A stretch of 64,000 nt of DNA from Helicobacteraceae bacterium (GCA_031288475.1 JAITRJ010000034.1:34208-98207); one strand, 5' to 3'. Positions 1,192-64,000 are shown, counted from the stretch's first letter. Notes: generated from the sequence alone by a model not told the origin. Numbers and translations are program-made.

Positions 1192-3146
1192 ACGATCAAG
1201 AGTACATACAATCTGTGGAAACCTTAAATCGCTGGGCGTACTCTTACTACGTTTTGGACAAACCGGAGGCGACGGACGAAGACTACGACAGGCTTTACAA
1301 AGAGGTAAAAGAGTACGAGGACACGAACGCAGCAAAAATTCTTCACTCCTCTCCCACGCGGAGAGTGGGAGATGCGTTGTTAAGCGGCTTTGAAAAGGCG
1401 AAGCATATTGAGCGGATGTGGTCGCTGGAAGATATTTTTTCATACGAAGAGCTTTCCGTCTGGATCGCAAAGGTAAAAAAACTTGCCGGACAGGAGATAG
1501 AATTTATATGCGAACCGAAATACGACGGAGCGAGCCTTAGCTTAGTGTACGAAAGCGGCGTTTTGGCGCGCGCGGTTACGCGCGGCAACGGCATAGAAGG
1601 GGAAAACGTAACATCAAACGCCCGCACAATCCGCACCATACCGCTTGCAATAAATCACAAAGATAAGATCGAAATCCGCGGTGAAACGGTAATATATAAG
1701 AGCGAATTTGAAGCGATCAATAAAGAGCGTATAAAAAATGGCGAAACGCCGTTCGCAAATCCCAGAAACAGCGCTTCGGGAAGTTTAAGACAGCTCGATC
1801 CCGCTGTGTGTGCAAAGCGCAAGCTTATCTTTCTGCCATGGGGGGTTGGCACAGGCAGTCTTTCCGCGACAAGCGGTTTTGAAGAGATGAGTGCGATAGA
1901 AACAATGGGGTTTAAGAAAAACGCGCTGCGCGCTCTCTGCCGTAATACGGATGAGATAGAAGAAACCTATTTGTCGCTGATGAAAGCGAGATCACATATC
2001 AAGATGCAACTTGATGGAATGGTAATTAAAATAAATGATTTGAATCTTAGGGGTAAATTGGGCTGGACAATCAAAGCGCCGCGCTGGGCAAGTGCTTATA
2101 AATTTCCAGCGATTGAAAAAAAAACAAAGCTGATAAGCGTCGATTGGCAGGTAGGACGCAGTGGTGCGCTTACGCCTGTAGGAAACGTCGAGACGGTAAA
2201 CATAGACGGCGCGGAAATATCGAGGGTTACTCTTCATAATTTTGACGAAATTCTACGGCTTGATCTAAAGATCGGAGACCACGTTGCGCTGATTAGGAGC
2301 GGGGATGTGATTCCAAAGGTTGTTCAGGTTTTAACGACGATGAGAAATCAGACGCAAAAGAGTATAAAAAAACCAGATTTCTGCCCTAGCTGCGGTGGCG
2401 AACTTTTCGTTGATGGCGCTCTAATAAAATGCCAAAATACGAAGTGTAAAGATCGCGTTATAAGCACTTTGACCCATTTCGCGTCAAAAAGAGCGCTTAA
2501 TATCGAGGGTTTGGGTGAAAGAATTATCACACAGTTGTACGAAAACGGTATTATCAGGCAGATAGAGGATATTTTTATACTAAGCGGCGAAAGTTTTAAA
2601 AATCTTGAAGGTTTCAAGGACAAAAAAAACACGAATTTGTTAAGCGCAATAGAAAGCGCTAAACATTGCGAACTGTGGCGTTTTATTAATGCGTTTGGGA
2701 TAGAGCATATCGGCGAAGGCGCGTCAAAAACGGTTGCTGACGCCTTCAAGTTCGAGTGGTACGCCAAAGAAATTGAGGATTATGTGCGGCTGGAGGGTTT
2801 TGGAACGGAGATGAGCACGTCGCTACGCGAATTCGCGCAAGCCAATAGGGATCGAATTGAATATCTTACGAAAATTATCGCTCCAGTGTGTAATGAAAAA
2901 AAAACGACCGGCAATTCGATATTTAACGCCAAAACAGTTGTTATCACGGGCAGTTTCCCAACCAGCAGAGAAGAAATACGGGTAAAGCTTGAAGCGTTGG
3001 GCGCGAAAACGAGCGAGAGCGTCTCCAAAAAAACCGATTTTGTTTTCGCCGGAGAAAATGCCGGAAGCAAGCTTGAAAAAGCAAAGACGCTTGGAATCAA
3101 AATCTTCTACAATGACGAAGTGCTGAAGGAGCTTGAAAATGCTTAG
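1188..3146 (+). CDS. ligA: NAD-dependent DNA ligase LigA
   Basis: LigA seals nicks in duplex DNA using NAD+ during replication and repair. The 652-residue product has the full architecture. There is an N-terminal Ia domain, then the adenylation motif EPKYDGAS with nucleophile Lys111. An OB-fold region follows, then a four-Cys zinc finger (CPSCGG...CQNTKC), helix-hairpin-helix repeats and a C-terminal BRCT domain (TVVITGSFPTSREE...). The GTG start overlaps the upstream TGA as GTGA. Length and domain order are typical and I see no defect. The 3' end overlaps the next start by 8 bp. Confidence 0.96.
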   Translation: MNDQEYIQSVETLNRWAYSYYVLDKPEATDEDYDRLYKEVKEYEDTNAAKILHSSPTRRVGDALLSGFEKAKHIERMWSLEDIFSYEELSVWIAKVKKLAGQEIEFICEPKYDGASLSLVYESGVLARAVTRGNGIEGENVTSNARTIRTIPLAINHKDKIEIRGETVIYKSEFEAINKERIKNGETPFANPRNSASGSLRQLDPAVCAKRKLIFLPWGVGTGSLSATSGFEEMSAIETMGFKKNALRALCRNTDEIEETYLSLMKARSHIKMQLDGMVIKINDLNLRGKLGWTIKAPRWASAYKFPAIEKKTKLISVDWQVGRSGALTPVGNVETVNIDGAEISRVTLHNFDEILRLDLKIGDHVALIRSGDVIPKVVQVLTTMRNQTQKSIKKPDFCPSCGGELFVDGALIKCQNTKCKDRVISTLTHFASKRALNIEGLGERIITQLYENGIIRQIEDIFILSGESFKNLEGFKDKKNTNLLSAIESAKHCELWRFINAFGIEHIGEGASKTVADAFKFEWYAKEIEDYVRLEGFGTEMSTSLREFAQANRDRIEYLTKIIAPVCNEKKTTGNSIFNAKTVVITGSFPTSREEIRVKLEALGAKTSESVSKKTDFVFAGENAGSKLEKAKTLGIKIFYNDEVLKELENA

Positions 3147-4632
3147 AATCGTCTTCACGCTGACGCTTTTTGCCGTCTCTCTCTTATGCGAAACACTTCA
3201 AGATGTAAAAATGGATTATCTCAGCAACAGCAATATCTGGATAAAAACATATAAAAATCAAAAGAATATCAACGAATTGAAAAACAAAATATCTATTTTG
3301 ACAGAAGAAGTAAACGCGCTTACAAAAAGGGGACGGGACGCGCGAATAAAGAATGAGGAGCTTACGCTGTTAAAAGCGCAGATGGAAAGCTTAACAAGCG
3401 TAGCCAGAAGCTTTTCAGATATTCTGGATGTTACCTCTATAAATGCGCAGACGATCGAAATTAATCTTATCAGTTTCCTCACGAACAGCAAAGTCAAGGA
3501 GCTTGAACGCGCCCGCGCCCAGATCGAATCGCTGAAAAAAGATTATGAAAGAGCAATAGCATATATAGAGGAGACAGCGAAAAAAACTGAAAATATCATT
3601 GATATGGAATACTCGAATGAGGCAAAGGAGTTTCTGAAATTGGTAGAGGAGGATTTGCATATTTTTTTGGTGGCAAAAGGCATTATCGATCAAAAAGAGG
3701 AATCAATTGAAACTCTTTTTGGGCTAATCGCTTCAAAAACGCGTCACTATAAAGATAACGAGTTCGCGCAGCTGATCGCGAATATATTGATCGCGATTGG
3801 TATTCTGACGTCTCTCTACATAGTACGGTTTTTGTTTGCCCGGTTCAGTGGGAACGAAGAGAGATCTGCGTTCTGGATACGCCTCTCTAACCTGCTGGCG
3901 GCTCTTTTTATCGCTCTTTTCTTTCTCTTTAATTATATAGACAACCTAATCTACGCGCTTACCTTCGTAGGCTTTATGGCGGCAGGTTTGACAATTGTAC
4001 ATAAAGAGCTGCTGTTAAACATCGCCGCATGGCTTCAAATGGCGTTCAGCAGTTCGATACAAGTGGGAGATCGTATTCTTTTATACTTTGAGGCAACGCC
4101 CATCATCGGCGATGTGATCGCGATCTCACCAATGAAAATAACGCTCTACGAAGAGATCACGCACAATAATGCGGCGGAGCTTAAACGGGCGGGACGTATT
4201 TTGTTTATTCCAACAAATTTCATATTTTCAAAAGTAATTTATAATTACACACATGAATCAATGAAGACCATATATGATCTTATTGAAATCCCTCTGAACA
4301 TAAACAGCGACTTTGATCGTGTAAAAAAGATTACGGAAGAAGTAGTGTCCAAAACTACGGCGCGTTATATTGAAATGGCACGATATCAATATAAGAAACT
4401 CCAAGATAAATATATTCTGCGAGGCAAAGATATGTCACCAAGAATACAGTTTATGATGCCATCGGACAAAAAAGGCATTGTTATGTATCTTTGGTACGTA
4501 GCTCCATACAGAGAGATATTAAACTGCCGGAGCGATCTGACGCTTGAATTGATCAGGCGTTTCAAAAAAGAGGCAAATATATTTTTAATAGACGAGGAGA
4601 AGAAAAAGAGCGAACAACCATCCGTTACTTAA
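3139..4632 (+). CDS. MscS-family mechanosensitive ion channel with periplasmic coiled-coil region
   Basis: The protein (~497 aa) begins with a signal-peptide-like segment (LRIVFTLTLFAVSLLCE). A long charged, coiled-coil-like periplasmic region follows to about residue 210. Several membrane segments come next, including a TM3-like helix rich in Gly and Ala (TFVGFMAAGLTIV), then a beta-rich MscS cytoplasmic domain (SSSIQVGDRILLYF). Such channels open under membrane tension and release solutes on osmotic downshock. I prefer the ATG at 3139 to the TTG at 3133 because GAAGGAG lies 7 nt before it. It overlaps ligA by 8 bp and converges on the next gene with an 8-bp overlap. Confidence 0.85.
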   Translation: MLRIVFTLTLFAVSLLCETLQDVKMDYLSNSNIWIKTYKNQKNINELKNKISILTEEVNALTKRGRDARIKNEELTLLKAQMESLTSVARSFSDILDVTSINAQTIEINLISFLTNSKVKELERARAQIESLKKDYERAIAYIEETAKKTENIIDMEYSNEAKEFLKLVEEDLHIFLVAKGIIDQKEESIETLFGLIASKTRHYKDNEFAQLIANILIAIGILTSLYIVRFLFARFSGNEERSAFWIRLSNLLAALFIALFFLFNYIDNLIYALTFVGFMAAGLTIVHKELLLNIAAWLQMAFSSSIQVGDRILLYFEATPIIGDVIAISPMKITLYEEITHNNAAELKRAGRILFIPTNFIFSKVIYNYTHESMKTIYDLIEIPLNINSDFDRVKKITEEVVSKTTARYIEMARYQYKKLQDKYILRGKDMSPRIQFMMPSDKKGIVMYLWYVAPYREILNCRSDLTLELIRRFKKEANIFLIDEEKKKSEQPSVT

Positions 4633-54038: not shown

Positions 54039-56093
54039 CTACTCAATATCCTCAACCGCAAACTCCACCTTGCAGCTCTGTCCGCTTTCGTCCATTACAA
54101 CAAGCTGATAATCGCCATTTTTAGTAAAGCTGTAATTGAGGAATTCGTTCTCGCCGTTTTGGGCGATCAGATCACCGTTAAGGAACCACCAGCGCGTACC
54201 GCTGCCGCCCTGAGAACTGATCGTCGGAATTAAAAAAGTCTCCGATTTGTGCTTTGTGAAGACAGCTCCGTTCTTGATCTCTTTAATAAACAGCGGTCGA
54301 ACCAACTCGCTATCTTCCGATGGCGGGCATACCTTGCTTTTTTTCGGCAGACGGTGGCTGATCTGCTCGCCTGCGTCCAGCCACGGGCTTAAAGCGACAG
54401 GCCACAGCGCAAGCTGTTTTTTCACCGCGTTCTTGCAGTCAAACGCGACACGCTCGTGTCGATCGTCCTCATAGTAGGTGTACCAGCCGCCCATAAGAAA
54501 ATCCTGCGCGCTTGATAACAGCGTAGGCGGCGTAACGCCATTCACTGTCCACGCTCGTTTCTCCACGCGGCAGTTTGGATCGTTCTTTGGCAACGGCTGG
54601 CCGCCAGGCCAGCATATTGACGCGCTGCCAACAGAAGCAGGCATTTCGTCAAGAGCGTTGTTGACGATAAAGGAGCTGATCGCCCGCGACTGCAAATAGT
54701 TGTTTATACGAAGCAGAAAAGGAACGGCAACCGCGGCGCCAAACTGTTCCGCCACCGGAGTGCCATCTGGTCTTCCTACCCAGACGCCGATAATGTAGCG
54801 CGAACTTACTCCCACCGCCCACGCGTCGCGAAATCCGTAGCTCGTGCCCGTCTTGTACGCCATAGAAAGAAAACCGTACCGGTAAAACGCCGGATCGGCT
54901 TCGCCGGAGAGCATACGTCTCGTTACCCACGCCGCCCCTTCCCCCACAAAGTTATAAGAGATAAGTTCGTCGTTCTTCAAGTAACGCAGCGGCGATATAC
55001 TGCCTCCCCGCGCGAAAGCGCTGTAAGCGCTTACAAGCCGATCAAGACTGATTCCCGCGCCGCCTAGAATAATCGAAAGATTCGGCTCGCTGTATCTGGG
55101 GAGCATCAGCTTAATACCCGCGTTTGAGAGTTTGGCGGCAAATCTTTTTGATCCATACGCTTCCATAAGCTGTACGGCGGGCAGATTCAGCGATTTCTCC
55201 AATGCTTCGGAAGCGCTTACCGCACCGCTGAAGGCACTGCTGAAGTTCTCAGGCCGATAGCTGGAGACGCGCGGCGTATCAAGCAGCAACGATTCAGAGT
55301 GAATCAGCCCCTCATCAATGCCAAGGGCGTATATAAACGGCTTGAGCGTCGAACCAGGGGAACGGATGGCGCTTACCATATCGACATGCCCAAAGCGGCT
55401 TTCGTCGTTCATATCCGCCGATCCCACATACGCCCTGACCGCCATATCGGTGTGATCGACCACCAGAAAGGCGAGAGAAGTCGCGGGGCGAAGCGCCGAT
55501 TTGGCATTCCGCGCCATCTCCTCAAGACTCTCCTGCATAGACGCGTCAATATTGGATTCGATCACCCGATCGCCGGTCATCAAAAGCGCCCGCCGCGCGA
55601 AAAGCGGGGCAAGCTGCGGTACAAAACGGGGCGACAGATATATATCCTCCTCCTTAGCGTCTTTCACCTGTTCTTCGCTGAAAATGCCAAACTTCAAAAG
55701 CCGATTCAGAACTTTGTTGCGCGCGTTCTGCGCCTCTTTAGGGAAGCGATCGGGGCGCAACCTGCTTGGCGCCTGCGGCAGGGCGACCATCAACGCTGCC
55801 TCCGCGCGGCTCAGTTCAGACGGTTCCTTGCCTAAGTACGACCACGTAGCCGCTCGGATACCCTCAATTGTCCCGCCAAATGGCGCGCGGTTCAGATAGA
55901 TCGTCAATATCTCATCTTTGCTCAGATGCCATTCCAACTGCAAAGCGCGCCATATCTGACGTATCTTGCCAAAAATGGTTCTTCCGTGCGGCTCTATCAG
56001 CCGCGCTGTCTGCATAGTAAGCGTGCTGGCGCCGGAAACGATTCTTCCGCTGGAAAGATTTTGAAAAGAGGCACGGATGACAGAGACGGGATT
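54039..56093 (-). pseudogene. pbpC: Penicillin-binding protein 1C, 5' end cut off by prophage
   Basis: Remaining reading: NPVSVIRASFQNLSSGRIVS and GASTLTMQTARLI (glycosyltransferase domain), then a transpeptidase domain with SxxK (GSTLKPFIYALG), SLN (KSLNLPAV) and KTG (KTGTSYGFRD), and a BiPBP-C end with RWWFLNG. Before the Asn at 56093 the sequence becomes phage DNA with an in-frame stop. The first ~100 codons, including the membrane anchor and the catalytic Glu of the glycosyltransferase, are missing here and should lie beyond the other phage end. The gene is therefore interrupted, though a transpeptidase-only reading from the ATG at 56015 is possible. Confidence 0.88.
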
Positions 56094-56100
56094 TGTAAAT

Positions 56101-56250
56101 TACACTTTGAAATTGGACTATGATTCAACAGAAATTGGACTCCTCCCGGAAAACCACCCTCGAAAAAGTCCAATTCCTATTGAATTTTTGTTTCACGGGG
56201 CGTTTCACGCCCCCGCCGTCTCCGCGTAAATAGTCCAATTTCTGTTTAAT
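56101..56250. repeat. Four transposase-binding-like sites at the phage end
   Basis: Consensus ATTCAACAGAAATTGGACT. Copies lie at 56101-56119 and 56123-56141 on the plus strand, starting 22 bp apart (about two helical turns). Two more at 56167-56185 and 56232-56250 are inverted. All share AATTGGACT, and three share most of ATTCAACAGAAATTGGACT. The layout resembles the MuA-binding arrays at Mu ends. A GGGGCGT-TTC-ACGCCCC hairpin lies at 56197-56213 between the inverted copies. Confidence 0.7.
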
Positions 56251-56299: not shown

Positions 56300-57040
56300 C
56301 TAATAATTGCTGATTACCAGTTCGCTATGGACGCCGCGCTTTTCGCCGAAGCTGTATCGCGCGGCGATTGTCTCCGCCCTGTACCCCTTGTACATCTCTC
56401 TTATCTCCGCGCAGTCGTTATAGCTGAGCAGCCACCTGCCGCTTACAGCCGCCAGACAATCCCTCAGCCGCTCGTGATCCGGACCGTTAAAGTGCCCGCC
56501 CTCGTAGTAATGCTCGTTGCGGTAGTATGGCGGATCGAGGTAGAAAAAGCTCTCCCTGCCGTCGTACTCCCTTAGTAATCGCCCAAAGTCCAGCCGCTCA
56601 ATGCATACGCCCTTAAGCCTCCTTGAGCAGACCGCAAAGTCTCTCCATAACGACTTAGGCCTCTTGCGCTTAGGCATTAAAAAAGTACACCCGAGAGCGC
56701 CGTAGCTGAGCGTTAGGCGGTATAGATACGCCGCCGCCCTCTCTATATCATTACTGACAGGATAACTCCCCTTTTTGATTGCGTAAAATATCTCGCGGCT
56801 CACGATCATCGATCTAAGGTAATTAGAGAGCGATTCCGGGCGCGTTTTGATTTGCAGATGAAGGTTAATAAGCTCGCCGTTAAGATCGTTAATAACCTCG
56901 ATTTTGCTTGGCTCTTTGGCGTATAACACGCTTAGCCCCCCCGCGAATACCTCGCAATACAGCGTATGCGGCGGTATCCTCTCTATAATCTGCGCGGCGA
57001 ACTTGCTCTTGCCGCCCACCCAGCCAAACGCCGCCTTCAT
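56300..57040 (-). CDS. Phage DNA adenine methylase (Dam type)
   Basis: A 246-residue N6-adenine methyltransferase of the D12/Dam class. Motif X/I is GWVGGKSKFA (residues 6-15), with CEVFAGGLSV and NDLNGELINL as SAM-pocket segments. The catalytic motif IV is LDPPY (168-172), followed by a C-terminal FGEKRGVHSELVI. GATC is the likely target by class, but the target cannot be read from sequence. It is the last gene of the phage late operon, overlapping the formyltransferase gene by 4 bp. It may protect phage DNA, prime the hypermodification, or control its expression. Confidence 0.9.
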   Translation of the reverse strand: MKAAFGWVGGKSKFAAQIIERIPPHTLYCEVFAGGLSVLYAKEPSKIEVINDLNGELINLHLQIKTRPESLSNYLRSMIVSREIFYAIKKGSYPVSNDIERAAAYLYRLTLSYGALGCTFLMPKRKRPKSLWRDFAVCSRRLKGVCIERLDFGRLLREYDGRESFFYLDPPYYRNEHYYEGGHFNGPDHERLRDCLAAVSGRWLLSYNDCAEIREMYKGYRAETIAARYSFGEKRGVHSELVISNY

Positions 57041-57642
57041 TTTGCGCCTCCGGCTAATCTGTTATTGGTAATCGCGGGCTCAAATGTCGCCGCCTCGCTC
57101 TCCTGCCTTATCCGCGTAACAACCCCATTATCCAGATCGCCTAAAACCTGTAAAAACAGCTTAACGCCAAGAGGCGCAAGCTCCCGCTCCCACAGCGATC
57201 TTGCCGTATCGCCCTCTCTGATAAATACAGCCTCCCTTGCCGCTATATCCCCTGTATCGGCTCCATCGTCGAGCCAATAGACCGATCCGCCCGTAATAGC
57301 CTCTCTCATGCGTAAAGCCCACGCTATAGCGTCTCTGCCCCTGTGCCTTGGCAGCAAAGAGGGGTGATAGCCCAGCGCCCCAAACCTTGCCTTTGCCCTA
57401 GCGCACGCCGCTATAAAGGCGTGGCAGTGAGCGGAGAGAATAACGTCCGCTCCCGCTGATATATCAGCCTCCCCGATAATCGAATTGTGTATAGATAAGG
57501 GTATATCAGCGCGTTTTGCCGCGAAAGCTAACCTGTCGCCGGTTGAGGGCGCCGAAACGCCCGTAACAATATGCCCAGCGCCTATAACCGCCCCAAACAC
57601 CCGCCCGCCGAAATACTTTTGCCCGCAGATATGAACTCTCAC
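57037..57642 (-). CDS. Formyltransferase-fold phage protein
   Basis: A 201-residue protein with the catalytic domain of methionyl-tRNA / GAR formyltransferases but no tRNA-binding C-terminal domain. The active-site loop reads ALGYHPSLLPRHRGRDAI (His93). The DTGD motif (WLDDGADTGDI) supplies the catalytic Asp. In folate-dependent formyltransferases the residue two before the His is Asn; here it is Gly, so the chemistry may differ. It starts with GTG in a GTGA overlap with the ABC-GNAT gene and overlaps dam. A role in modifying a base or an amino acid precursor is inference. Confidence 0.8.
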   Translation of the reverse strand: MRVHICGQKYFGGRVFGAVIGAGHIVTGVSAPSTGDRLAFAAKRADIPLSIHNSIIGEADISAGADVILSAHCHAFIAACARAKARFGALGYHPSLLPRHRGRDAIAWALRMREAITGGSVYWLDDGADTGDIAAREAVFIREGDTARSLWERELAPLGVKLFLQVLGDLDNGVVTRIRQESEAATFEPAITNNRLAGGAK

Positions 57643-58772
57643 GCCGCCGCCTCCGCTCCTATATACCGAAAGCCCTGCACTGCCCTGAAATGCCCGCCGT
57701 AACCTGTTGAGCCGCCCCGGGAGGCGCCGCGTCTTTGCATCGATTGGGTGATTGTCGCCGCGCTCTTGCTTTTGCTGCCGCCGTAAAGAGCGCCGCTTAC
57801 CTGCGTCCAGCGTTTATCGCGCCTGAGCGCCGCGCACAATCCGGGGTGCGAGGTGTGAAAGAGCGTGGGAAGCCTGAGGTTGTAGCGGTTGCTGCCCTTA
57901 AGCCACTCCCCGCAAACGAAATTAAGAAACCTTATACCGACACCAGCGCCCTGCCACTCTGGCATCACCACCAGACGGCAGGCTCTCGCCTCGATCATGC
58001 CCTGCCGCGTTGAGACGGCAAGATGAGCGACGGGATCGTTATCAATAAACCCCACATAATTTGTCGCCGCTATCATAATCGGCAGGTCTAAATAGTGATG
58101 CGGGCTAAAGTAACGCCATAGGCTCCAGTCGCCGCGCCTGATCTCAAGCTCAATCGGCGGTCTGCGAAGTAAATCCTTTGTGTGAGATAAACGCATACCG
58201 TCGGTATCCAGCACCCAATCGGGATTAAGCCACTCCAGTACATCATAATGGCAGGTGAGCAGGATGCACCTGCCGCCAGTCCGCCTCCACGCCTTAGCAA
58301 AGGCAAGAGCGCCTATTTTGGCGATCTGGCGATCAACAACCGATGTAAACTCGTCGATTACGATCTCGTTTGGGGCTTCGGCTACCGCTCTGGCTAAATC
58401 CGCCCTAAAACGCTCCCCAGTCGATAAGACCTTATAAGGTCTAAGCCACGCGGGAACGCTCCCAAGCCCTACGGCGGCAAGGGCGGCGGTCGCGGCGTTA
58501 AAGTCTCCCTCAGGCGCAATCTCATCAATGATTGGTTTATCGCCCCATACAGGGCGGTAGATTTTATCCTCCCCGAAAGCCATTGCGCCTAAAGAGGATT
58601 TGCCTGTGCCGGAGCGCCCCACAATCACGCCGATTTGCCAGCTTTGATCCTCAATCGGCAGATCAGCCTCAATGTTAAAGCTTGCCCCGCTATCTACGTT
58701 AAACAATGATTTAACCCTTGCCGCGCGGTAGGAGCTAAAATCCCCGCAGTGGTGGTTAACTGATACTCTCAT
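57639..58772 (-). CDS. ABC-type ATPase fused to a Mom-like GNAT domain
   Basis: A 377-residue two-domain protein. Residues ~45-190 are an ABC ATPase: Walker A GRSGTGKS (52-59), signature LSTGE (116-120), Walker B IVIDEFTSVVD, H-switch His175. No membrane partner exists, so it is not a transporter. Residues ~205-335 read as a GNAT domain with WRYFSPHHYLDLP, a strand pattern VGFIDNDPVAHLAVS and acyl-CoA loop RLVVMPEWQGAGVG (266-279), then HTSHPGL. This resembles phage Mu Mom, which carbamoylmethylates adenine. The position at the phage right end matches mom. Coupled by ATGA to the small protein before it. Confidence 0.78.
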   Translation of the reverse strand: MRVSVNHHCGDFSSYRAARVKSLFNVDSGASFNIEADLPIEDQSWQIGVIVGRSGTGKSSLGAMAFGEDKIYRPVWGDKPIIDEIAPEGDFNAATAALAAVGLGSVPAWLRPYKVLSTGERFRADLARAVAEAPNEIVIDEFTSVVDRQIAKIGALAFAKAWRRTGGRCILLTCHYDVLEWLNPDWVLDTDGMRLSHTKDLLRRPPIELEIRRGDWSLWRYFSPHHYLDLPIMIAATNYVGFIDNDPVAHLAVSTRQGMIEARACRLVVMPEWQGAGVGIRFLNFVCGEWLKGSNRYNLRLPTLFHTSHPGLCAALRRDKRWTQVSGALYGGSKSKSAATITQSMQRRGASRGGSTGYGGHFRAVQGFRYIGAEAAA

Positions 58773-58933
58773 ACCACCACCACCTTAAGCTTTAGCCCCT
58801 GCTTTAACAGCCGGTCATAGAGCTTTTTCTGTTCCTCCTCGCTCTCGCAGATTACCACCACGCCGTACTGCTGGCGGTACTTGTAACCATTGGCGCCGAG
58901 TTGTTTTTTAGGCGCTTTTGCCTCTTCACTCAT
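58769..58933 (-). CDS. Small phage protein upstream of the ABC-GNAT gene
   Basis: A 54-residue reading from ATG 58933, with AGGAGGG 5 nt upstream. It ends YGVVVICESEEEQKKLYDRL then LKLKVVVV, a pattern of small proteins that accompany phage ABC/Mom-type genes (V-V-C-dE--Q---Y--L---G---kVV). The same frame is open back to a GTG at 59194 that overlaps the tail gene (141 codons). That longer reading passes through the G17 tract and encodes a low-complexity segment. It overlaps the ABC-GNAT start by 4 bp. Function unknown. Confidence 0.6.
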   Translation of the reverse strand: MSEEAKAPKKQLGANGYKYRQQYGVVVICESEEEQKKLYDRLLKQGLKLKVVVV

Positions 58934-59123: not shown

Positions 59124-59140
59124 CCCCCCCCCCCCCCCCC
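59124..59140 (-). repeat. Homopolymer of 17 G (coding strand)
   Basis: Seventeen consecutive C on the plus strand, i.e. G17 in the transcript sense of the phage operon. It lies between the tail gene stop (59191) and the small cassette protein (58933). It is inside an open frame that starts at GTG 59194, where the present length keeps the frame open into the cassette. Tracts of this kind are phase-variation switches in Campylobacter and Helicobacter. Confidence 0.9.
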
Positions 59141-59190: not shown

Positions 59191-60114
59191 TCACGCTAAG
59201 CCCTCGACCTCGAAGCTTAAATCGCTGATCTCCTCGCGGCTGAGCTGGAGCGAAAAATCCCTATATACGCCATAGACCGATAACGAGTTAAAACGGGCGA
59301 GATCGTCGCCTATAAAGACGGTGGGGCGGGATCGTATCTGGCTCATAATATCGGCGACCTGATCGAAACGGGCGGTTTTGACAAACACCTCGAAACTCAC
59401 GCGCTTAGAGTAGGCTCTCTCCTTAATATAGATATTGCCGCTCTCGTCGGCTGCCTTGATTGAGTAATCTATAATGCTTACGGAGGGCGGGACGCGGGTC
59501 TCCCCTATATCAACCATAATCCCCGCTATGATCTTGCCGATGGAAAAGCCGCCTGTTAAAGCGGTTAATCTGATACGAACACCCGCTACCCTCGAGGGAA
59601 CCTCAAATAGTAAATCCTGCGCCGAGCCTGTTGAGACCAGCTCGCGAAAGAAGTAAGTTGTCCAGCTTACGGCCGGCTCATAAATGTTGCTTGACGCCCT
59701 TACCTCTTTGCTGAAAAACGGCGTGTCCCCAGCCGAATCGAATACCTCTAATGTAGCGGTGCCATTGAAACGCGCCAGGAATACGCCGCCCACTTTGAGC
59801 GCCCGAATCTCAAGGATCGATCCGGAGGCGTAAGAGCTTAACGTGCTTACAGAATCATCGAATACCTTATACGCCTCGCTCGCCCCTTTGTTAAGCCAGC
59901 TAAGCGATCCGTCCGCGGGATCGTCGCTGGTATTAACGCCAGCCTCAAATATATAATCAATCGACGCAACGTCAATCGCGGCTTTACTGGCGGCAACTGA
60001 GCGGATTACCTTATCCCCCGCGCTGTAGCTTCCCTCCTGCCACTCTGGTACAGTGCCGCTCCCGATCGCTTCGCTGGCGATTACGGTTAATGGTTTAGGG
60101 TATAACAGCATCAT
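59191..60114 (-). CDS. Phage tail/baseplate structural protein
   Basis: A 307-residue protein encoded directly after the tape measure gene (4-bp overlap). The N-terminal part has PEWQEGSYSAGDKVIRS, a carbohydrate-binding-like opening. The rest is beta-rich and ends QLSREEISDLSFEVEGLA. Position after tape measure suggests a distal tail or baseplate protein. I do not recognise a named family. Its stop overlaps a GTG that leads into the G17 tract. Confidence 0.6.
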   Translation of the reverse strand: MMLLYPKPLTVIASEAIGSGTVPEWQEGSYSAGDKVIRSVAASKAAIDVASIDYIFEAGVNTSDDPADGSLSWLNKGASEAYKVFDDSVSTLSSYASGSILEIRALKVGGVFLARFNGTATLEVFDSAGDTPFFSKEVRASSNIYEPAVSWTTYFFRELVSTGSAQDLLFEVPSRVAGVRIRLTALTGGFSIGKIIAGIMVDIGETRVPPSVSIIDYSIKAADESGNIYIKERAYSKRVSFEVFVKTARFDQVADIMSQIRSRPTVFIGDDLARFNSLSVYGVYRDFSLQLSREEISDLSFEVEGLA

Positions 60115-63100
60115 GTTAAGCCTCCGGCGGCGGCTTCGGCGGCAAGCTCCGCGCGGGCTTCGTAGCGCTCAATAGCCGCTAGCCTTTTGGCCGATTCGGC
60201 GTTAATCGCTTTCTGCTCTTTGAGTTCGTCGAGCATTTGTTGCAGGAGCTCCGCTGTCCGCGCGGCGCTCTCGTCATACTCGGCGAGCCTCGCGAGGTTA
60301 TCCAGATAGTCCGCGTCGCTGGCATCGCCGCCAAAGCGCAGGGTGGCAATCGCCTCAATTAGATTATTAAGCTCGTCCTGCGTCTTTGCTCCGCTTGCTA
60401 ACGCTAAGGCTCTCTTTGCGGTATCGGACGTGCCGCTGAAACCTATCTGATCAATGGAGAGCGAGGGGGTCAGAGCGGCTACCAGATCGCTAATCGTCTG
60501 GTTGGTGGCAAGGTCGATATTGTCGCCCACAATCCTCACGCTTAATATATCCGCGCTTAGATCGATAGCGCCCGCAATCTGCGCCAGCTCCCTTTCAAGC
60601 GCCGATTTGCCCGTAAAGTCATAATCGCCAAGCACCCCCTGAAACGCCCGCGCCGCCTCAATATAACCGCCCGTCACATCCTGTACGTACTGCTGGGTTA
60701 AACCGCCCCTGATTGCGCCTGTACCGTCGTATAGATTGGATAAGCCAATCCGCGCCGTTAAATACTGCCGTTGCAGAAACTCCTGATCGTCGCTGCGACC
60801 CTCTGTTATCAGATCGCGCGCTTGATCGGCAAACGAGCGCAACCCGTCGGCAAATGATCTGAGCGAGCTTGCCGCGCTCTCAACGGCGCTGTCGGTCTGG
60901 CTCAGCCACTCCGTAAACTCCGCCTCGCTGGATAACCGCTCAAGCTGGGCGTTGGCGTATGCCTTGATTGCCTCCACATTAGCCGTTATCGCCTGTTTAA
61001 GGCTTTCCAATGCGGCGGTCAGGTCATCAACGTTAACCGCCGCGCCGTATCTGCCGATTATCGCCTCAAGGTCAAGATTTTCAAATAGGGCGGCAGCGTC
61101 TCTGGCGCTTAAATCCTTAAGGTATTGGGCGCTCTCCCCCGCCTCGCCGATAATTGTTTCGGTAAGAGTAATCCCGGCGTTTTCCAGCGCGTCGTTATAG
61201 ACTGCGGCTATATACTCTGCCGCGCTGGAGAGATCAAGGTACGAGCGATCAAGATTATAGGTCAGGCTCTCACCTCTCAAGGCGGCGCTCAGCGCGTCGA
61301 TGCCTTCGGTTGCCGCCAGCAGAGCGCCCATCTTTTCGTTAAAGTTTTTCGCGCCCTCAAGCGTCAAACTGCCGTATTTATCCGTTCCGAACTGCTTTAA
61401 AAACGCCGCCAGATGCAACTGCGCCTCTGTTAGCTGGGCGTAGTAAATGGTAGTTTTTTTAGCCGTTCCCAGCAGGGTCTTTTTCTTTTTAACTTCGCGC
61501 CCGATTTCTACATTAAATTTGATGATGTTGTCGTAATAGCTATCAAACCATCCCAGCGCAAACTCCTGCGCCGCCTTGACGTACCGCTCGCCTGAGCTTT
61601 GGGCGCTGAGGAATTTAGCCGCCCCCAGCGAGCCGTCAAAGCCCTTGCGGGAGATTGTGTTATAGCCTAGGACGGAGCCGATCAGCTTTTCGAGCGAGCC
61701 CGAGCCAAAGATACCGCCTACGGCGCCAAACAGGGCGGCGGAGAGCCCGCCCGTAATGCCGGGCAGAAGGGCGGCTAAACCGCCCGCTAAAATTTTGCCC
61801 AGATCGCTTAGCCTATAGCCGCTCTCCCCTGACATATCGGCGTTTTGCGTCGACGCCCGCGCCGCGTTAAAAGTGGTATTGACGCCGCCGAAACGCTTAA
61901 CCAGCGTAAAGTAAGCCTTAAACGCCTCGGCGCTCTCACGGGTATTATCGGCGATCTCCCGCAGTAAGTCCCTTTGGCTCGTCATCTCCCATTGGGCGGT
62001 CATCTCGCCTATTACCAGCGCCGCCGCCGCGCCTACGCCCATTGCCGCGCCCGCTGAGGCTAAACCCCCCGCCATTGCGCTTATATTTCCCGCTGCCGCC
62101 TGCGCCTGTATTGAGGCGCTGATCTGAGCGGAGACGCTTGACGCCGCCGAGCTAAGCGCCGCGCTTAATATGTCCTTGCCGCTGATTGAGCCGCTTTTAA
62201 CGCCGGATACAACCGCGCCGCTTATATCGTCAGCGAGATTGCCGACAAGGTTGTCGGCGAAGGTTTTAGGCGTTTGTTTTTCGATAATGCCCTGCTGTTC
62301 TTTCAGCGCGTCAAGCTCTTTGTTGAGGAGATCGACGCGATCGCCGCCGGTAATCCCGCTCTTTTCCAGCGCGGCAATCTCTGCCGTTACACCGGCAATG
62401 GAGGTCTTAACCTGCAGTAGCCTCTTCTGGCGGTTAGCCTCCTCTTCGCTTATCGCGCCCGCCGCCGCCAGATTATCAAGAGACAGCTCCTCGATCTTTT
62501 GCTTTTCCTGCAGGAGGCGTATCGTGGTCTGCGCCGCCTTTTCCGCCTCGTCCTTGTAAAACTTAAGTATTTCGGCGCCCTGCCCCGCCCGTATCAGTTC
62601 CGTTATGCGCTTAAGCTCGTTTTCGTCGCTGGCGTAGAGCGCGTTTGCCTCCGCTTGGTAGGCGGCGTACCTGGCTTCTATAGCCTTAGCTTCGGCCTGC
62701 CCAAGCGAGGTTAGCTTCTCCTCCAGCTTCTGTCGATCCTGATCGGCTTTATCGTTAATTTTGTTAAGCTCAGCGGTATATATCTCTCCTATCAGTTTCA
62801 TCGCCCGTTTAAACTCGTTTGTGTTGGGGGCGACTTTGGCGGCAAGCTGATCGATCATCCCCTGCCGCTCTCTGTTCAGCTTTTCGAGGTCGGATAACAG
62901 GAGCTTGTCGCGCTCGGTCTGCAGTTCTTTAAGGATACCTGCCGCGTCTTCGGGGTTGTATGTTTTAAGAGGGATCTGCGCTTTTTTTGGATCGGTAAAC
63001 GCCTGTATCGCCCGTATCCGCTCCTCGTACTCGTTTGCCTTCCTCTCCGCCTGCTCCCACTGCGCCTCCTGCTCAAGGGATAGCTTCTTCTGCCTGCCGA

Positions 63101-64000
63101 GCATCATGTCAATAACAGAGACGTCGGCTGATTGGAGATCGGTTAATATCCTTAGCTGTTCGGCTTTTTTCTCCCGCAGCCCCTCTACCAGCATCTCGCG
63201 CTCCGCTTTGCCGTATTTACGCAGGCTTTCTACCGCCCCGTCCCAGCCGTCGGCGAGTTCTTCGGCAGCGCTTTTCGCAAACAAAAAGTGCGAGGCGATT
63301 GCGGTTAATCCCGCAATCACAATGCCCCAAGGGGCGGCTTTAAACGCCTTAGACAGGGCGCCCTTCGCGGCGCTCAGCGCGGCGGTGGCGCTGGCTGTGG
63401 AGAGCGTCGCCGCCCTCATCGCGGTCATCGCGCCCGTTACGGATTTTACGGCGGCGGCGATAAAGGCAAATACCGCCGCCTTGTTGCGGACTGCAAGCAA
63501 AGCCGCGCCGAATACCGCCGCGTCTTTGGCGAGCGAGGCAAAGGCCGATGGAAGCGCCTTAATAAGCTCTTTATTATTAACTAAAAGCTCGTTAAAGCTC
63601 CGCATTCCTTTGGTAATCGCTTCAAATAAAGGCTTGGTTAACTCCCCGCGAAGCTCTTCAATCGTCGTGTTCAGCGAGGCAAGCGAGGCGTTATAGCCCT
63701 TTGCCCCCTGCGCGGCTATATCGGGTATATCGGCGAGCTTAGACATTATAAGCTCGTAGGTTTTACCATTTTCAGCCGCTTCTTTAAGGGCTGTATTGGT
63801 TAAGCCCAGCCCTGAAAGAAACCGCCCGAAGTCGCTGTTGGCTAGTATTGTCCCTTTTGCTGCTCCGTCGATGCCCGCTATGAGGGCGTTAAACTCTACC
63901 CCCTGTATCTTTGCCGCCTGCGTTAATCTTGCGGAGGCTTTAGCCGCCTTGTCCATACTCATACCGACAGAAAGAGCGCCCGGCAGGAAGGTCTTAAACG
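60111..64000 (-). CDS. Phage tail tape measure protein (5' end outside the window)
   Basis: At least 1296 residues of a tape measure protein, which sets tail length and is threaded through the tube. The frame is open through 63999 (FKTFLPGALSVGMSMDKAAK), so the start lies beyond the window. The visible part has the N-terminal helical domain with VEFNALIAGIDGAAKG, hydrophobic stretches (FAFIAAAVKSVTGAMTAM; AALSAAKGALSKAF), long coiled-coil regions between ~230 and 540, a second hydrophobic stretch around 630-760 and a helical C-terminus. Base composition is like the host's. Confidence 0.88.
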   Translation of the reverse strand, partial: FKTFLPGALSVGMSMDKAAKASARLTQAAKIQGVEFNALIAGIDGAAKGTILANSDFGRFLSGLGLTNTALKEAAENGKTYELIMSKLADIPDIAAQGAKGYNASLASLNTTIEELRGELTKPLFEAITKGMRSFNELLVNNKELIKALPSAFASLAKDAAVFGAALLAVRNKAAVFAFIAAAVKSVTGAMTAMRAATLSTASATAALSAAKGALSKAFKAAPWGIVIAGLTAIASHFLFAKSAAEELADGWDGAVESLRKYGKAEREMLVEGLREKKAEQLRILTDLQSADVSVIDMMLGRQKKLSLEQEAQWEQAERKANEYEERIRAIQAFTDPKKAQIPLKTYNPEDAAGILKELQTERDKLLLSDLEKLNRERQGMIDQLAAKVAPNTNEFKRAMKLIGEIYTAELNKINDKADQDRQKLEEKLTSLGQAEAKAIEARYAAYQAEANALYASDENELKRITELIRAGQGAEILKFYKDEAEKAAQTTIRLLQEKQKIEELSLDNLAAAGAISEEEANRQKRLLQVKTSIAGVTAEIAALEKSGITGGDRVDLLNKELDALKEQQGIIEKQTPKTFADNLVGNLADDISGAVVSGVKSGSISGKDILSAALSSAASSVSAQISASIQAQAAAGNISAMAGGLASAGAAMGVGAAAALVIGEMTAQWEMTSQRDLLREIADNTRESAEAFKAYFTLVKRFGGVNTTFNAARASTQNADMSGESGYRLSDLGKILAGGLAALLPGITGGLSAALFGAVGGIFGSGSLEKLIGSVLGYNTISRKGFDGSLGAAKFLSAQSSGERYVKAAQEFALGWFDSYYDNIIKFNVEIGREVKKKKTLLGTAKKTTIYYAQLTEAQLHLAAFLKQFGTDKYGSLTLEGAKNFNEKMGALLAATEGIDALSAALRGESLTYNLDRSYLDLSSAAEYIAAVYNDALENAGITLTETIIGEAGESAQYLKDLSARDAAALFENLDLEAIIGRYGAAVNVDDLTAALESLKQAITANVEAIKAYANAQLERLSSEAEFTEWLSQTDSAVESAASSLRSFADGLRSFADQARDLITEGRSDDQEFLQRQYLTARIGLSNLYDGTGAIRGGLTQQYVQDVTGGYIEAARAFQGVLGDYDFTGKSALERELAQIAGAIDLSADILSVRIVGDNIDLATNQTISDLVAALTPSLSIDQIGFSGTSDTAKRALALASGAKTQDELNNLIEAIATLRFGGDASDADYLDNLARLAEYDESAARTAELLQQMLDELKEQKAINAESAKRLAAIERYEARAELAAEAAAGGLT

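Follow-up and report, generated by a model that had tools for sequence, protein, structure and literature searches.

At the right end of a prophage in the 64-kb stretch of DNA analysed here (the 'window', to whose full length all coordinates refer) lies a cassette with a core of three genes. These encode a small protein, an ABC ATPase fused to a GNAT acyltransferase ('ABC-GNAT') and a protein with a formyltransferase fold ('FT'), and they recur side by side in phages and in the genomes of several bacterial phyla. That the cassette modifies DNA, as such, we consider very probable on the analysis that follows; that it acylates a base of phage DNA, with the FT supplying a formyl donor, we rate at about an even chance. 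The cassette genes are all on the minus strand and are followed, in this phage, by a gene for a Dam-family adenine methylase. From upstream to downstream, the features are:

60111-63962, minus strand: tail tape-measure protein of the same phage (phrog_10093, 8.6e-18)
59191-60114, minus strand: phage protein of unknown function, the gene preceding the cassette (phrog_6278, 1.1e-39)
59124-59140, minus strand: 17-bp G tract (a C run on the plus strand), 190 bp ahead of the cassette's first gene
58769-58933, minus strand: small protein, 54 aa (phrog_28816, 6e-20)
57639-58772, minus strand: ABC-ATPase/GNAT fusion, 377 aa (phrog_11143, 5e-147)
57037-57642, minus strand: FT, 201 aa, GTG start (phrog_9240, 2.7e-54; Formyl_trans_N, 7e-19)
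56300-57040, minus strand: Dam-family adenine methylase, the terminal phage gene (PF02086, MethyltransfD12, 5e-27; phrog_56, 2.7e-67)

Each of the four ORFs overlaps the next by 4 bp, and all four, with every junction, were verified as the original prediction for this DNA had described them. The G tract is the sole G/C homopolymer of at least 9 bp within the window and sits in a frame that is open into the small protein; it is a possible phase-variation switch, by which slipped-strand events might turn the cassette on and off. In a PADLOC search for known anti-phage defence systems, Dam matched methylase-type models, and the FT and the ATPase gave nothing more than weak, partial matches.

The prophage splits a host gene, pbpC, encoding PBP1C. 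One part of this gene occupies 54039-56093 of the window and the other lies on a separate contig, C56. The junction is marked by three features:

56131-56140, again at 56109-56118, and inverted at 56233-56242: subterminal repeat GAAATTGGAC, found by pattern scan
56094-56119: right terminus of the phage, TGTAAATTACACTTTGAAATTGGACT on the plus strand, with 21/27 matches to TGTAAAGTTGAGTTTGAAGTTGGACTC and inverted with respect to the left terminus
56089-56093: target-site duplication of 5 bp (minus-strand sequence AATCC), with identical flanks TTCGGCGTCAATCC / AATCCCGTCTCTGT

The left terminus, TGTAAAGTTGAGTTTGAAGTTGGACT, is the inverted partner of the right and starts on C56 at the exit from the host gene. 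The phage thus ends in a TG..CA inverted repeat flanked by a 5-bp target duplication, as Mu-type transposable phages do, and when the phage and one AATCC are taken out in silico, a continuous PBP1C reading frame is regained. Terminus pair, duplication and restored frame are hallmarks of Mu-type transposition, and they bear out the earlier placement of the cassette at a phage end: the Dam gene stops 206 bp from the terminus. The subterminal repeats are, by their likeness to Mu ends, possible transposase-binding sites. We base the label 'Mu-like' on the termini and on relatives of the cassette, because the contig ends within the phage; the remainder of the phage was not found in the assembly, and neither MuA nor a Mu portal was found there, the search for MuA (PF02914) giving zero in its control as well. 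Among 59 related genomes the cassette occurs in none, the weak matches there resembling other ABC ATPases.

The ABC-GNAT protein comprises an ABC ATPase (residues ~1-195) and a GNAT acyltransferase (~208-377), and a single family of unknown function, phrog_11143, spans the entire fusion. Searched as a single sequence against Pfam, it matches ABC_tran at 3.7e-6 and GNAT weakly, at 1e-3; when the corresponding domains of 25 relatives were scanned, all 25 matched PF00583, the best at 5e-10. Its nucleotide-binding motifs are intact, and the residues of the Walker A, LSxGE signature, Walker B and H-loop motifs are invariant among 61 relatives. The same is true of P271, Q274, G275 and G277 in the GNAT loop RLVVMPEWQGAGVG, where alignment, PF00583 and the secondary structure of an AlphaFold2 (AF2) model (pLDDT 88) between them display motif A, Q/RxxGxG/A, and the expected order of strand and helix. 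The fusion is as originally described. The loop, termed 'Mom-like' at that stage, is instead the generic acyl-CoA motif of GNATs: homology to Mom was rejected after hhalign comparison with 5 Mom sequences and, in a second round, 12 (no match; probability 0.2% for the GNAT profile against the 12), and a PHROG search with the ABC-GNAT gave no match to the Mom family, phrog_1384. By these profile comparisons no relationship of the GNAT to Mom can be detected below the level of the superfamily, and 'GNAT in the mom slot' should be preferred to 'Mom-like' as its label. Among the matches listed, Foldseek with the whole ABC-GNAT model retrieved generic ABC ATPases only. The fusion has natural variants. 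In a subset of loci (within L067-L087) ABC and GNAT are separate, neighbouring ORFs, and one phage contig, L394, encodes two ABC-GNAT copies, the more downstream at 3035-4135 of that contig.

The small protein (QYGVVVICESEEEQKKLYDRLLKQGLKLKVVVV) is, as judged by profile matching, a free-standing form of the domain that makes up the C-terminal tail of ParB-like proteins in phages. Its family, phrog_28816, also matches ParB-like proteins encoded in homologous loci, at their C-termini (1.6e-8 and 4.3e-7), and the ParB region of these also matches a family of phage DNA methylases, phrog_498. Some loci encode two ParB-like proteins. In a Porphyromonas phage (L004), the small protein just upstream of the ABC-GNAT carries the annotation 'acr candidate', which is probably mistaken in view of the protein's position in the cassette; labels in current records for the cassette genes include, besides this one, PurN, tRNA-methyltransferase and ABC transporter.

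Conservation of the cassette was gauged from 170 ABC-GNAT loci in phages, viral contigs and bacterial genomes. In 165 of the 170, the gene directly upstream of the ABC-GNAT encodes the tail domain, either as the small protein or at the C-terminus of a ParB-like protein. An FT is found in 138/170, and adjoins the ABC-GNAT in 97 of the 113 distinct loci that have enough downstream sequence. When loci are anchored on the FT, the ABC-GNAT adjoins it in 75 of 78, two of the three exceptions being at contig edges. The two proteins form one polypeptide in one case (L161), and their distance matrices correlate (Mantel r 0.69, p 0.001, n=95). Small protein, ABC-GNAT and FT are the core of the cassette. 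Dam is not part of it: tried as a core member, it was rejected, being near 6/170 cassettes, and is an accessory. Of the co-occurrence originally anticipated among ABC-GNAT, FT and Dam, the FT's share is upheld and Dam's is not, and Dam as a step in a common pathway is not supported. A relative of the cassette, with an ABC-GNAT match and an annotated formyltransferase, lies on a conjugative plasmid, the IncP plasmid pKV29 of Delftia (L562), possibly within an inserted element.

What links the cassette to known DNA modification is its position. In 53 of the 170 loci, a small zinc-ribbon protein (neighbourhood cluster 7) is encoded upstream of the tail protein, and this is Com (PF10122; Pfam 9e-21 in the phage Komp_PAO1_1). 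Com was present in 10 of the 12 genomes with the cassette in which it was sought. In all 53 Com loci the tail protein is the short form and never the ParB fusion. In Mu, Com is the translational activator of mom (PMC6483171), and com-mom lies at the same end of the genome, after the tail-fibre genes and the invertase gene gin; Komp_PAO1_1, a cultured phage equipped with genes for a transposase, a transposition protein and Gam, has the cassette after the tail-fibre assembly gene. An independent scan anchored on Com, confined to the best 80 matches and so leaning to Mu-like Com, showed 72 of these to be directly followed by a DNA-modification gene: phrog_67 methylase (43), mom (17), phrog_56 Dam-type methylase (11) and ABC-GNAT (1). 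The original assignment of a DNA-modification cassette to the slot of Mu com-mom is supported by both sets of loci. The window has no Com, by Pfam search over the whole genome and by three-frame reading of the 257 bp upstream of the cassette, and in 369 randomly sampled genomes Com and Mom matches were too few for use. Across L237-L314, Com precedes DNA methylases more often than mom, and as a regulator it is broader than its name implies.

Two alternative readings bear on this slot. The first, the mechanism originally proposed, is carbamoylmethylation of adenine of the Mom type with Dam as partner. The cassette does occupy the same slot as mom, and Dam is adjacent in the window, but the GNAT has no profile similarity to Mom, Dam is scarce elsewhere, and Mu Mom works without an adjoining FT gene; we judge this reading very improbable. 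The second holds that the target is protein or RNA rather than DNA, as in host takeover or the acylation of tRNA or ribosomes. GNATs have many substrates, and Formyl_trans_N enzymes include Met-tRNA formyltransferase. Set against this are the Com slot, common to mom and methylases, the ParB tail, the match of the ParB region to a DNA methylase family, and the location in the late region, and we think a target other than DNA distinctly unlikely.

The FT has the Formyl_trans_N fold with the catalytic His and Asp, which are kept in 129/129 and 130/130 members of the family, respectively. Its active site has Gly91 at the position of the catalytic Asn, and retains His93, Ser95 and Asp129. The replacement of Asn by Gly, remarked upon at the outset, is real and is part of a wider pattern: the position is G in 96, I in 18, V in 6, A in 5 and S in 4 of the 129 aligned relatives, and the Asn two residues before His, typical of amine formyltransferases (Fmt, PurN and ArnA), occurs in 0/129. 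Searched against the PDB, a profile of 49 FTs finds first the hydrolase domain of 10-formyl-THF dehydrogenase, FDH (5e-41), followed by tRNA-Met formyltransferase (1e-27) and PurN (1.6e-15), and with an AF2 model of the FT (pLDDT 94.7), the top five Foldseek matches are all FDH hydrolase domains (TMq 0.83-0.86). FDH itself has Ile at the Asn position, where the substitution I104N leaves <10% activity and Ala ~50% (PMC4388273). Its acceptor is a thiol, that of 4'-phosphopantetheine or, for the isolated domain, mercaptoethanol (PMC4388273; PMC8748788). For the N-terminal domain of HypX, a formyl transfer has been proposed in which 10-formyl-THF is the donor and CoA the acceptor (PMC6802093). The residue pattern of the FT agrees with transfer of the FDH type, to a pantetheine thiol. 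A thiol-acceptor enzyme as nearest relative, and a GNAT that uses acyl-CoA as neighbour, suggest on analogy that the FT makes formyl-CoA, and that this is the GNAT's donor. The expectation of a different acceptor or chemistry stands in respect of the altered chemistry, the Asn being absent; the affinity to FDH points away from a new acceptor on DNA and towards supply of a donor.

Counted against a formyl-donor role is the fact that FDH-like domains can also merely hydrolyse 10-formyl-THF. The FT might accordingly be a hydrolase, serving folate recycling or providing formate for phage nucleotide synthesis, while the GNAT applies host acetyl-CoA to DNA; the isolated N-terminal domain of FDH does hydrolyse 10-formyl-THF, given a thiol (PMC4388273). 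The near-obligate adjacency of FT and ABC-GNAT, their co-divergence and their fusion argue instead for a direct, shared reaction, and a hydrolase is in our estimate improbable.

Further clues to the donor come from a sister clade of more distant ABC-GNATs (clade 2), in whose 80 loci no FT was found. In 11 of these loci and in phage Jace, the ABC-GNAT is followed by PanD and a short, CaiB-like, class-III CoA-transferase, always as a pair (L009, L393, L394, L396, L397, L405, L408, L411, L413, L420, L436 and L455). Several of the loci are closely related, and ~8 are independent. PanD produces beta-alanine, and CoA-transferases form thioesters with CoA. A donor carrying a beta-alanyl group is accordingly plausible, and the pair can plausibly be read as an acyl-CoA supply parallel to the FT. 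PanD and FT never occur together. Many clade-2 cassettes have neither, which implies that acyl-CoA from the host can suffice for the GNAT. As a general scheme, we offer tentatively, and as rather unlikely in its full extent, a system of two parts: a fixed writer (ParB-tail protein and ABC-GNAT), and an exchangeable acyl-CoA supply, in which an FDH-like formyl-CoA synthase would lead to N-formyl and PanD with CoA-transferase to beta-alanyl marks.

The PanD modules also hint at aminoacyl groups, and with them at hypermodification in two steps, in which the GNAT adds an acyl group bearing an amine (e.g. glycyl or beta-alanyl) to the base, leaving the FT to formylate the amine once it is on DNA. 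Amines are the acceptors of most Formyl_trans_N enzymes, and FT and GNAT are near-obligate partners, once fused, as such a sequence would have them be. Yet the FT family lacks the Asn of amine formyltransferases and its nearest relative has a thiol as acceptor (PMC4388273), and no gene for an amine-bearing donor is seen with the FT, PanD included. Two-step modification seems to us unlikely, if somewhat less so than hydrolysis or a non-DNA target.

Returning to the reading we prefer, base acylation with a formyl donor, the cassette might work as follows. The ParB-tail small protein would act as an adaptor or DNA-targeting subunit, and the ABC ATPase would grip or open the DNA at the expense of ATP. 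The FT would take formyl from 10-formyl-tetrahydrofolate and load it onto CoA at the thiol, forming formyl-CoA, and the GNAT would use this as its acyl-CoA donor to acylate an exocyclic amine on a DNA base, whichever of the amine-bearing bases that may be. The expected mark would be an N-formyl base; formyl as the final mark on DNA is a narrower claim, and to us a doubtful one, though somewhat better placed than the general two-part scheme. The cassette would then be a late-gene module, and the acylated phage genome would be hidden from restriction. If all this is true, there are new base modifications (N-formyl and possibly beta-alanyl), writers that come with a cofactor supply of their own, and an enzyme of a new type, the stand-alone formyl-CoA synthase. 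Com, which is not specific to mom and stands mostly ahead of phage DNA-modification genes, offers a simple genomic flag for undiscovered modifications. Cultured phages with the cassette exist, among them Komp_PAO1_1 (of P. aeruginosa PAO1), Gordonia phages such as Mariokart, and Jace.

The prediction that ABC ATPase-GNAT proteins modify DNA reportedly originated with Iyer, Zhang, Burroughs and Aravind, in NAR in 2013. It was applied, as acylation of a DNA base, to Tenacibaculum phage pT24 (PMC7824862, citing Iyer 2013), whose ABC-GNAT is a match of the one in the window and belongs to the same family. The term 'Formyl' is absent from the pT24 paper, and Com and donor-supply genes are absent from its passage on this protein. 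Our literature search, whose scope did not extend to the text of Iyer 2013, where the FT may be noted, returned no paper linking FT, PanD or formyl-CoA with phage DNA modification. The ABC-GNAT was thus already predicted to modify DNA; the Com link, the chemistry of the FT and the donor modules appear to be new.

With com-mom of Mu, the cassette shares the right-end slot of transposable phages, Com directly upstream in 53 relatives, and an enzyme of the GNAT superfamily. It differs in that its GNAT cannot be aligned with Mom, in the addition of ATPase, tail protein and FT, and, in the window, in being without Com. HypX has an N-terminal domain that is related to the FT and for which formyl transfer to CoA is proposed (PMC6802093); it decarbonylates formyl-CoA to CO for hydrogenase, and the PDB sequence matches listed for the FT do not include it. 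Closest to the FT is the N-terminal hydrolase domain of FDH (ALDH1L1), its best match in both sequence and structure, with an Asn-less site and a His/Ser/Asp triad (PMC4388273). Unlike FDH, the FT is a stand-alone phage protein that dispenses with the carrier and aldehyde dehydrogenase domains, and adjoins, instead, an acyltransferase.
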